A stretch of 64,000 bases of DNA from Mycetocola spongiae. GTDB taxonomy: Bacteria > Actinomycetota > Actinomycetes > Actinomycetales > Microbacteriaceae. The position numbers and the translations under genes were made by a program. Positions within the stretch are counted from its first letter, which is position 1, and each line of letters opens with the position of its first letter. Under the pieces are notes generated by a model. The model ran no database searches, was not told the origin of the DNA, and saw nothing but the letters and a program-made list of their open reading frames with translations. Below are positions 23,207 to 25,671 of this stretch, in pieces. The stretch is from the NCBI RefSeq assembly GCF_020424085.1, contig NZ_CP080203.1:2728001-2792000 (forward strand), written 5' to 3'.

Positions 23207-24307
23207 TTAGGCCGAAACGGTGGGCTTGCTCAGGCGCAGGCCGGACTCGACGTCGAAGACGTGCAGGTGGTTCGGGAGAACCTCCAGGCGCACGGTCTCT
23301 CCGGCGTAGGGGTGGATGCGGCCGTCAACGCGGGCAACCAGGTCGGTACGGATGCCGTCGATATCGGCGTGACCGTAGAGGTAGCCATCGGCTCCGAGCT
23401 CCTCCACGAGGTCAACAACCACCTCGAGGCCCGCGTTGGGGTCCTCGGTGACGCGGATGTCCTCGGGGCGCACACCGATGGTGGCCTTGGGGGCGGAGGT
23501 CTGCGAGAGGGTCTCGCGCTCCACCGGGACGATGGAGGAACCGAACTGGGCGCCGCCGTCGGTCAGGCCCACCTGGAGCAGGTTCATTGCGGGCGAACCG
23601 ATGAAGCCGGCCACGAAGACGTTCTCGGGCTTCTCGTACAGGTCGCGGGGGGTTCCCACCTGCTGGAGCAGTCCGTCCTTGAGCACGGCGATGCGGTCAC
23701 CCATGGTGAGCGCCTCGGTCTGGTCGTGGGTCACATATACGGTGGTGACGCCGAGGCGGCGCTGCAGCGATGCGATCTGGGTACGGGTCTGTACGCGCAG
23801 CTTGGCGTCGAGGTTCGACAGCGGCTCGTCCATGAGGAATACCTGGGGCTGACGCACGATTGCGCGACCCATGGCCACACGCTGACGCTGACCACCCGAG
23901 AGGGCCTTGGGCTTGCGGGTGAGGTAGTCCTCGAGGTCGAGGAGCTTGGCTGCCTCCAGGACACGAGCGGCACGCTCCTCCTTGCCCACGCCGGCGATCT
24001 TCAGGGCGAAGCCCATGTTCTCGGCCACGGTCATGTGGGGGTAGAGCGCGTAGTTCTGGAAGACCATGGCGATGTCACGGTCCTTCGGGGGGATATCGGT
24101 GACGTCGCGGTCACCGATCAGGATGCGGCCGTCGTTAACCTCTTCGAGGCCGGCGAGCATGCGCAGCGACGTGGACTTACCACAGCCGGAGGGGCCAACC
24201 AGGACGAGGAATTCGCCATCCGCGACCTCGAGGTTGAGCTTATCTACCGCGGCGCGGGTTCCGCCCGGGTACATGCGTGTTGCGTTATCAAAAGTGACCG
24301 AAGCCAT
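23207..24307 (-). CDS. ugpC: Multi-sugar ABC transporter ATP-binding protein (UgpC/MsiK type)
   Basis: A 366-aa ATPase from ATG 24307 (MASVTFDNATRMYPGGTRAAV); the frame upstream to 24466 covers promoter sequence. Walker [18 protein letters not shown], signature LSGGQRQRVAMGRAIVR, Walker B VFLMDEPLSNLDAKLR and H-loop VTHDQTEAL are present. A C-terminal TOBE/MOE domain (about 240-366, with TIGVRPEDIRV) follows. No permease or binding-protein genes are nearby, as for MsiK, a shared ATPase energising several carbohydrate importers. Annotated 'UgpC' in many genomes, but the real partners are probably several. Confidence 0.9.
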   Translation of the reverse strand: MASVTFDNATRMYPGGTRAAVDKLNLEVADGEFLVLVGPSGCGKSTSLRMLAGLEEVNDGRILIGDRDVTDIPPKDRDIAMVFQNYALYPHMTVAENMGFALKIAGVGKEERAARVLEAAKLLDLEDYLTRKPKALSGGQRQRVAMGRAIVRQPQVFLMDEPLSNLDAKLRVQTRTQIASLQRRLGVTTVYVTHDQTEALTMGDRIAVLKDGLLQQVGTPRDLYEKPENVFVAGFIGSPAMNLLQVGLTDGGAQFGSSIVPVERETLSQTSAPKATIGVRPEDIRVTEDPNAGLEVVVDLVEELGADGYLYGHADIDGIRTDLVARVDGRIHPYAGETVRLEVLPNHLHVFDVESGLRLSKPTVSA

Positions 24308-24558
24308 TTTCTTCTCCTTCACCGGCAGGTACGTGCCGGACGATCCGTTGTGATGGATACCCCGCCGCGATAACACGTGCGGGGGTGCGACGACAGTGGC
24401 GCTAGGCCAGTATGGCACGCTTTTGATACGACGCGAACTGTATACAAAATAACAATTCAATTCCATTCGTTTGGCTATTATGCAGGCAGGACATTTACGA
24501 TAGGTAGGTGTGTGCCGTGTCGGATGGCACAGAGCGCACGTATCTGAAGCGAGGATCT

Positions 24559-25509
24559 ATGAGTAACAGCACCGAACCCGATCGCCAGGAAGGCTCATCG
24601 GTACGCGAATCGGTGCGCGTCCGTGCCGCGGAAATCCGTAGCGCGCAGCGCAAAAAAGACATCGCGCTCCGCTCCCTGCTGATCGGCGCGGGCGTGATCG
24701 TGGTTGCCGCAATCGTGGTCGCCGTGACCATGACCTTCGCCACCACCGAGACCTCGGCCAATACCGGGCCGGCCAATATGGCGAGCAACGGTGCCGTGGT
24801 GGGCGCCGATCTGAAAACCGTGCGCACCGAGTCCCTTCCCGTGACCGATGCCCCCCGACCCACGCCGATCGATCCGGCCGTCCCCAATATTCGGGTTTAT
24901 ATCGACTACCTCAGCGCCGATAGCGGCGAGTTTGAGAAGGCCAATGGCGAGCTGCTGAAGGGCTTCGCCCAGGACGGCGTGGCCACGGTGGAGATTCACC
25001 CGCTGGCCATCCTCACCGGTAAGTCCGCGGGCAGCCAGTATTCGCTGCGCTCGGCCAATGCCGCCGCCTGCGTGGCCAATTATTCGCCCGATACGTTCTT
25101 CGCCTTTAACCAGGCGCTCTTTGCCGATCAGCCCACCGAGGGCACCACGGGCCACGACGATAAGAAGCTGCTGAGCATCGCATCGCAGGCCGGGGCGAGC
25201 GATACCCGCGAGATCGGTAAGTGCATCGATAAGGTCACCTATAAGACCTGGGTGTCCAATGCCACCGATCGCGCCCTCGCGGATCCGATTCCGGACTCCA
25301 AGCTCGACCGCCTGAAGGGCGTTCCGACCATCATCGTGAACGATAAGGTCTATACCGGAGCCCCCGGCGATAGCAAGGAATTCCGCGCGTTTGTCCTCTC
25401 CGTTGCGAGCGAGGCACAGAATAAGGCCACCGCGAGCGCAACCCCCGAGCCTGCCGAGGAGGCCCCCGCGGAGGAGGCTCCCGCCGAGGAGGCCCCCGCC
25501 GCGGGCTAG
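24559..25509 (+). CDS. Membrane-anchored DsbA/thioredoxin-fold protein without CXXC
   Basis: A 316-aa protein from ATG 24559. A cytoplasmic N-terminus (1-37) is followed by one membrane helix (about 38-60, ALRSLLIGAGVIVVAAIVVAV) and an external DsbA-like domain (about 108-295). Where homologues have CxxC after the first strand, this one reads YLSADSGEF: Ser119-Ala-Asp-Ser122, both cysteines gone. The cis-Pro loop (GVPTIIVND) and the overall fold remain. Two other Cys occur (AACVANYS and GKCIDKV). The C-terminus repeats PAEEA three times. Redox activity is unlikely; a chaperone or binding role is inferred. Confidence 0.82.
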   Translation: MSNSTEPDRQEGSSVRESVRVRAAEIRSAQRKKDIALRSLLIGAGVIVVAAIVVAVTMTFATTETSANTGPANMASNGAVVGADLKTVRTESLPVTDAPRPTPIDPAVPNIRVYIDYLSADSGEFEKANGELLKGFAQDGVATVEIHPLAILTGKSAGSQYSLRSANAAACVANYSPDTFFAFNQALFADQPTEGTTGHDDKKLLSIASQAGASDTREIGKCIDKVTYKTWVSNATDRALADPIPDSKLDRLKGVPTIIVNDKVYTGAPGDSKEFRAFVLSVASEAQNKATASATPEPAEEAPAEEAPAEEAPAAG

Positions 25510-25595: not shown

Positions 25596-25671
25596 GCCGT
25601 TTTAGCTCAGTTGGTAGAGCACCGCACTTGTAATGCGAAGGTCGCGAGTTCGATTCTCGCAAACGGCTCCA
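25596..25671 (+). tRNA. tRNA-Thr (TGT)
   Basis: Acceptor GCCGTTT (25596-25602) pairs with AAACGGC (25661-25667), with discriminator T and an encoded CCA (25669-25671). The D arm contains TAGCTCAGTTGGTAGAGCA. The anticodon loop CTTGTAA has anticodon TGT at 25629-25631. The T arm is GCGAGTTCGATTCTCGC. Confidence 0.96.

Follow-up and report, generated by a model that had tools for sequence, protein, structure and literature searches.

The window analyzed here, a stretch of 64,000 nucleotides from Mycetocola spongiae, contains an open reading frame (ORF) at positions 24559..25509 on the plus strand that begins with an ATG start codon, is preceded by GAGG with a four-base spacer, and is open over its whole length. 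Based on the ORF, a match to Pfam family PF13462, and a structure model, the 316-amino-acid product was assigned as a membrane-anchored DsbA-fold protein without a CxxC motif. Two neighboring features served as synteny marks. Upstream and divergent lies a gene (23207..24466, minus strand) for a putative UgpC/MsiK-type sugar ABC ATPase, whose true start is probably internal to the reading frame at those coordinates, and downstream lies a tRNA-Thr (TGT) gene (25596..25671, plus strand).

The 316-residue protein matched the Pfam model Thioredoxin_4 (PF13462) with 41.3 bits, above the gathering cut-off of 23.2, and DSBA (PF01323) with 18.3 bits, below the gathering cut-off of 25.6; an NCBIfam search returned no family above its own cut-off. 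The best sequence matches among solved structures were entries 4jr4, 4k6x, 4ihu, and 4jr6 of DsbA (Rv2969c) from Mycobacterium tuberculosis (Mtb), with E-values of 1e-8 to 2e-8. An AlphaFold2 model calculated from an alignment of 55 proteins (the window protein and locus proteins) had a mean pLDDT of 90, and a search of the PDB for similar folds placed Mtb DsbA chains first (Z 21.6-22.1 over 175-179 residues, rmsd 2.4-2.5), with 4ihu_A at Z 22.1. The model has the fold of Mtb DsbA, a thioredoxin domain with an inserted helical domain. At its N-terminus is a long helix (residues 13-61; 24595..24741, plus strand) that would lead from a basic cytosolic stretch into a membrane anchor at about residues 38-61, a topology suggested by hydrophobicity and charge. 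The C-terminal 22 residues (295-316; 25441..25506, plus strand) form a Pro/Glu/Ala-rich tail that has no regular structure in the model; the tail carries an EEAPA-type repeat and is perhaps a wall-spanning spacer.

DsbA thiol-disulfide oxidoreductases are marked by a CxxC motif where the first helix of the thioredoxin domain begins, and this mark is absent from the window protein. The residues at that place are Ser119-Ala-Asp-Ser122 (24913..24924, plus strand; codons AGC GCC GAT AGC), and their assignment as the former CxxC rests on alignment to Mtb DsbA and to 196 orthologues next to the ugpC-type gene that have Cys in both columns. Translation and these alignments confirmed the replacement of both catalytic cysteines described in a preliminary description of this DNA. 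Because both cysteines are missing in all four genomes of the genus that were examined (g1; SADS, GADM, ASDM, and ASDM), a sequencing error is unlikely. The same description held that the fold, the anchor, and the cis-Pro loop remain. The model bears out the fold and the anchor, and the loop (V255-P256-T257; 25321..25329, plus strand) appears by alignment to be only partly intact: Pro256 is kept, and the Thr usual at position 255 is replaced by Val in the window protein and by Met in its three congeners.

The only cysteines of the window protein are Cys171 (25069..25071, plus strand) and Cys222 (25222..25224, plus strand). In the alignment to Mtb DsbA, each is matched to a cysteine; Cys140 and Cys192 of that enzyme are described in two reports as forming a structural disulfide that links helices within the inserted domain (PMC3853704, PMC3792642), and the two residues are probably halves of the equivalent disulfide here. 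In an initial census, 118 of 121 rows contained the pair. Both residues occur in all 16 CxxC-less orthologues discussed below, and each occurs in 98% of those that bear CxxC. C171/C222 thus appear to be an ordinary family feature and no new active site, and the earlier suggestion that they form an unusual alternative site was rejected because the pair aligns with the structural disulfide.

Recurrent change of the CxxC site at one locus

The nearest genera, g3 (six genomes) and g64 (two genomes), encode orthologues with 51-54% identity to the window protein that have CPIC, CPVC, CPAC, or CPFC at the site, so the closest relatives are not uniformly without CxxC, an outcome that would have spoken against the preliminary description. 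A divergent UgpC-type ATPase gene lies upstream of the DsbA-like gene in the genus, g3, and g64 alike. The tRNA-Thr gene follows the gene in the genus and g64, and was found in 121 of 215 rows of the census; immediately next to the g3 genes inspected, no such tRNA gene was seen. Since all four genomes of the genus lack CxxC and the nearest genera keep it at the same locus, the loss is placed by sequence comparison on the stem of the genus, a branch of 0.46 changes per column. The loss could therefore be dated by alignment to CxxC-bearing relatives, as had been proposed; the single sequence at hand for that proposal could show neither that such losses recur at the locus nor that the genome has CxxC paralogues.

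To count such copies, 299 family genomes were searched, of which 248 had a match at E ≤ 1e-40, and loci from a total of 244 family genomes were read. Copies beside a UgpC-type gene were kept, and 31 of the 244 genomes were dropped as the copy was not beside that gene or was at a contig end. After removal of three duplicate rows, 16 of 212 ugpC-adjacent copies (212 genomes, 63 genera) were without CxxC. A further copy (L284 of G318) also lacks it, giving 17 of 213. By genus, the losses are found in 4/4 genomes of g1, 5/5 of g69, 4/4 of g106, 1/1 of g60, 2/4 of g74, and 1/5 of g58; the sampling of g69 and g60 was extended once a loss was known there.

On a FastTree phylogeny of 221 rows from which the site columns had been removed, the CxxC character changes eight times. 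Eight changes were also obtained on a 48-row IQ-TREE tree (16 losses and 32 hand-chosen CxxC rows; a quick search whose support values are SH-aLRT alone), and starred branches require seven of these changes. The two g69 events are possibly a single one, and three events are each represented by one genome that is 82-88% complete (G064, G200, and G241). These counts give no direction by themselves; because the neighbors of each loss clade have CxxC, a loss of the motif is the natural reading of the change in each clade. A single ancient loss was rejected on the basis of these two trees.

The distribution by location was compared over 297 distinct DsbA-like rows. CxxC was present in 27/27 rows adjacent to a VKOR gene and absent in 17/212 rows beside the UgpC-type gene and in 1/58 rows elsewhere. 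Losses were thus more frequent in distinct ugpC-adjacent rows (17/212) than in all other rows (1/85; p = 0.03, uncorrected for relatedness and with an uneven sample of the other rows). The exception among the other rows, L302 (G031, genus g29), is a DsbA-like paralogue away from the ugpC-type gene that has LDAGDPKSRTLW at the site. In a separate observation, L023 and L032 are two adjacent DsbA-like genes on the same strand, both with CxxC, showing how second copies may arise.

Selection and conservation after the loss

Codon models gave an omega of 0.045 for the four members of the genus (2dlnL of 447 against omega = 1 with kappa fixed at its free estimate), a gene-wide average obtained with large dS values to the window species (0.97-1.11). 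The closest pair of congeners has a dN of 0.009 and a dS of 0.361. For orthologues with CxxC, the gene-wide omega was 0.062 (g3), 0.047 (g2), 0.034 (g33), and 0.053 (g3 with g64). The CxxC-less copies of g69 and g106 gave 0.071 and 0.072, slightly above the 0.034-0.062 range of the CxxC orthologues, and the genus falls inside that range; the CxxC paralogues of the g69 genomes gave 0.080, and the CPLC paralogue of the genus 0.072. The coding sequence is under purifying selection after the loss, in agreement with the preliminary claim that the protein is maintained; a codon-based check of this kind had been suggested there. Signs of pseudogene decay, which would have counted against that claim, were not visible, and each of the 16 loss copies in the census has an unbroken frame that spans at least residues 16-296 of the window protein. 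Branches that lead into loss clades measure 0.23-0.89 changes per column and are often long, so that a passing phase of relaxed selection on them is possible; some CxxC branches are long as well (0.93 for g93).

Seventy positions are conserved in at least 85% of the CxxC orthologues, and the two catalytic cysteines are the only ones among them kept in none of the 16 CxxC-less copies. At least 75% of these copies keep 57 of the 70, a fraction that overstates the evidence as the 16 rows are related to each other. Besides C171 and C222, the residues kept in 16/16 copies include R16, R20, A23, P71, G78, D116, F125, N129, H147, P148, and W231, of which P71 and G78 belong to the linker and R16, R20, and A23 to the stretch that is predicted to be cytosolic. 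R27 is kept in 13/16 copies. Together, R16, R20, A23, and R27 mark a basic segment before the membrane (residues 16-27; 24604-24639) with a conservation close to that of the catalytic cysteines in both types of copy; a search of the window's own genome for a second carrier of this N-terminal stretch gave no clear candidate, with two weak matches at E 0.09 and 0.58.

Changes near the former site were also seen. The cis-Pro at 256 is kept in 15/16 CxxC-less copies, being gone in L251, and also in L284. Eleven conserved positions are kept in fewer than 75% (22, 66, 70, 142, 194, 199, 236, 255, 260, 262, and 279), nine of which have no assigned link to the catalytic site. Of the other two, Thr255 (kept in 9/16) is the equivalent of Thr214 in Mtb DsbA, which is described in the accessible text of one report as bonding to both catalytic cysteines (PMC3853704), and Glu194 (kept in 7/16) corresponds, by counting along the alignment, to Glu165, placed near the catalytic cysteine in the part available of another (PMC3792642). 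At residue 121, which corresponds to the second X of the motif, 12/16 CxxC-less copies have Asp or Gly, compared with 4/196 CxxC copies. These residues arose convergently at the helix start in the separate genera g1, g69, and g106.

Paralogues and VKOR in genomes with the loss

The genome that contains the window encodes one VKOR and three further DsbA-fold proteins with CxxC: L002 (CPLC), L003 (CHWC), and L004 (CPYC). The sole VKOR match lies at G000:C1:221342-221737 and the window gene at C1:2752559, so that the latter is not VKOR-adjacent; it adjoins neither VKOR nor the gene for the CPLC paralogue. VKOR was found above the cut-off in 35/35 genomes searched, with and without the loss, and in 3/14 control genomes. 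On a midpoint-rooted FastTree phylogeny, the CPLC paralogue of the genus nests among VKOR-adjacent DsbAs, with the two nodes above it supported at 78 and 89 and those further up at 66 and 59, and was not seen beside VKOR itself. The smallest clade that includes all 27 VKOR-adjacent rows has 45 rows (support 98); for 12 of the 17 loss genomes it also contains a CxxC paralogue, which in seven of them is encoded beside VKOR. The g106 paralogues fall outside this clade.

A CxxC paralogue is present in 16/17 loss genomes, and G200 (88% complete) showed no second family member. The six g3 and two g64 genomes have a single family member at the 1e-40 threshold, and the sister genomes G005 and G068 have a single one even at E ≤ 1e-10, in each case with CxxC kept. 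Counted per genome, a second member accompanies the loss in 16/17 cases vs 37/59 CxxC genomes (hand-picked, one per genus; p = 0.015); counted per event, the figures are 6/7 vs 37/59 (p = 0.41, not significant), and a tie between a second family member and the loss is not claimed for that reason. The paralogue and VKOR data fit a division of labor between DsbA copies.

Proposed role and comparison with known systems

We consider it somewhat probable that the window gene is the orthologue of the DsbA found at the ugpC-adjacent locus, turned into a pseudo-oxidoreductase that is kept for a redox-independent binding or structural role at the membrane, with the redox duty lying with a paralogue. 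The CPLC paralogue would perform oxidative folding together with VKOR, and the window protein, presumably incapable of thiol-disulfide exchange at the old site, would be tethered to the membrane through its N-terminal helix and stabilized by a C171-C222 disulfide. A redox-independent function of the ugpC-adjacent copy may already have been present in the ancestor with CxxC. The function kept would most likely be to bind, non-covalently, an extracytoplasmic client or a partner in the membrane, as a chaperone, holdase, or scaffold; because positions near the site have changed (121, Thr255, and Glu194), the protein may not be using the old substrate groove. The roles of holdase, peptide binder, and structural protein named in the preliminary description are all possible.

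A more general proposal, which we advance tentatively and rate slightly below even, is that the DsbA of the ugpC locus has from the outset carried out a further, redox-independent job at the membrane and that its cysteines were discarded some seven or eight times in a single bacterial family when another DsbA could carry the redox load. Recurrent loss of the cysteines with the protein under selection would mean that part of DsbA-type function is not redox chemistry. If true, the loss lineages are ready-made separation-of-function mutants for the non-redox role of actinobacterial DsbA proteins, and pairs of genera with the cysteines kept and lost allow a direct test of this function. Such a job would then possibly help explain why these proteins can be essential: MdbA, which is DsbA-like, is described in the available part of one report as essential in several actinobacteria by an unidentified mechanism (PMC9974433).

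The rivals to a retained binding or structural role were considered in order of probability. Decay of the window gene is unlikely, and we gave only a small chance to a redundant copy that, with a second DsbA present and its catalytic site gone, is drifting slowly towards loss. The long branches into some loss clades, the variation of the former site among congeners, and the CxxC paralogue in nearly every loss genome are what such drift would leave behind, and there is a precedent in the second DsbA of Campylobacter jejuni, which in some strains is truncated, without CXXC, and inactive, as far as the available parts of two reports describe it (PMC8708908, PMC4152235). The intact frames of the 16 census copies, the dN and dS of the closest congeners, and the omega values, far below 1 in the genus, g69, and g106, speak against it, and the last of these disfavor a pseudogene reading. 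Pseudoenzymes often tune active relatives, and the window protein might likewise be a regulatory subunit that tunes the active CPLC paralogue by competing for, or recruiting, VKOR or substrates. This, too, we regard as improbable, and a shade more so. The protein co-occurs with VKOR, and in most loss genomes also with a VKOR-clade paralogue that has CxxC, and its cytosolic and juxtamembrane positions are conserved; however, its gene adjoins neither of the proposed partners, genomes without the loss have VKOR just as often, and the positions near the catalytic site, the side expected to bind VKOR, are among those that changed.

The last two rivals have very little probability. New serine-based chemistry could be imagined at the old site, as in the GST kappa enzymes, which are described in the accessible part of one report as having a DsbA fold and a serine at the first motif position (PMC2757866), and Ser is found at position 119 in the window protein and in 7/16 CxxC-less copies in all. 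A catalytic residue would be kept, yet position 119 is Ser, Gly, Ala, and Ala in the four members of the genus and Gln, Asn, or Asp elsewhere, and serine chemistry was rejected on this variation among congeners. An alternative redox center made of C171 and C222 draws on these being the only cysteines left and on their presence in 4/4 members of the genus. It was rejected on their alignment with the structural disulfide and their equal conservation in CxxC copies; Mtb DsbA mutants of the Cys140-Cys192 pair, moreover, retain isomerase activity according to the available text (PMC3853704).

PDILT and ERp29 are redox-dead PDI relatives of the eukaryotic endoplasmic reticulum (ER), thioredoxin-fold folding factors in which CxxC has been lost and which serve as chaperones or escorts; they differ from the window protein in being eukaryotic ER proteins of another family. 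GST kappa (HCCA isomerase) is set apart in that the first CxxC position is a conserved catalytic Ser; in the genus this position varies. Mtb DsbA (Rv2969c; PDB 4ihu, 4k6x, 4jr4, and 4jr6) shares the DsbA fold, the predicted membrane tether, a proline at the cis-Pro position, and the Cys pair in the helical insertion but, in the part of the report available, has CxxC (Cys89/Cys92) and Thr214 before the cis-Pro (PMC3853704), in place of Ser-Ala-Asp-Ser and Val255. MdbA and TsdA of Corynebacterium diphtheriae, both in the list of fold matches to the model, are an actinobacterial pair of membrane-tethered DsbA-fold proteins of which one can replace the other; unlike the window protein, they are described in the accessible text as active thiol-disulfide oxidoreductases, TsdA having CxxC (PMC9974433). 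The second DsbA of some Campylobacter jejuni strains (DsbA2) has likewise lost CXXC, but the excerpts available describe a truncated and inactive, hence decayed, protein, and it belongs to another DsbA class (PMC8708908, PMC4152235). In a limited search of the open literature, in which sources were available in part, this truncated DsbA2 was the only case encountered, and no full-length CxxC-less bacterial DsbA under selection was found. Closest to the window protein are the g3 and g64 orthologues (L008 and L040-L046), which share 51-54% identity, the divergent ugpC-type neighbor, and the second Cys pair and differ in their CPIC, CPVC, CPAC, or CPFC site and in having no second family member at the thresholds used. 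Redox-dead thioredoxin-fold proteins are already known in general; repeated loss at one locus adds interest to the present case.
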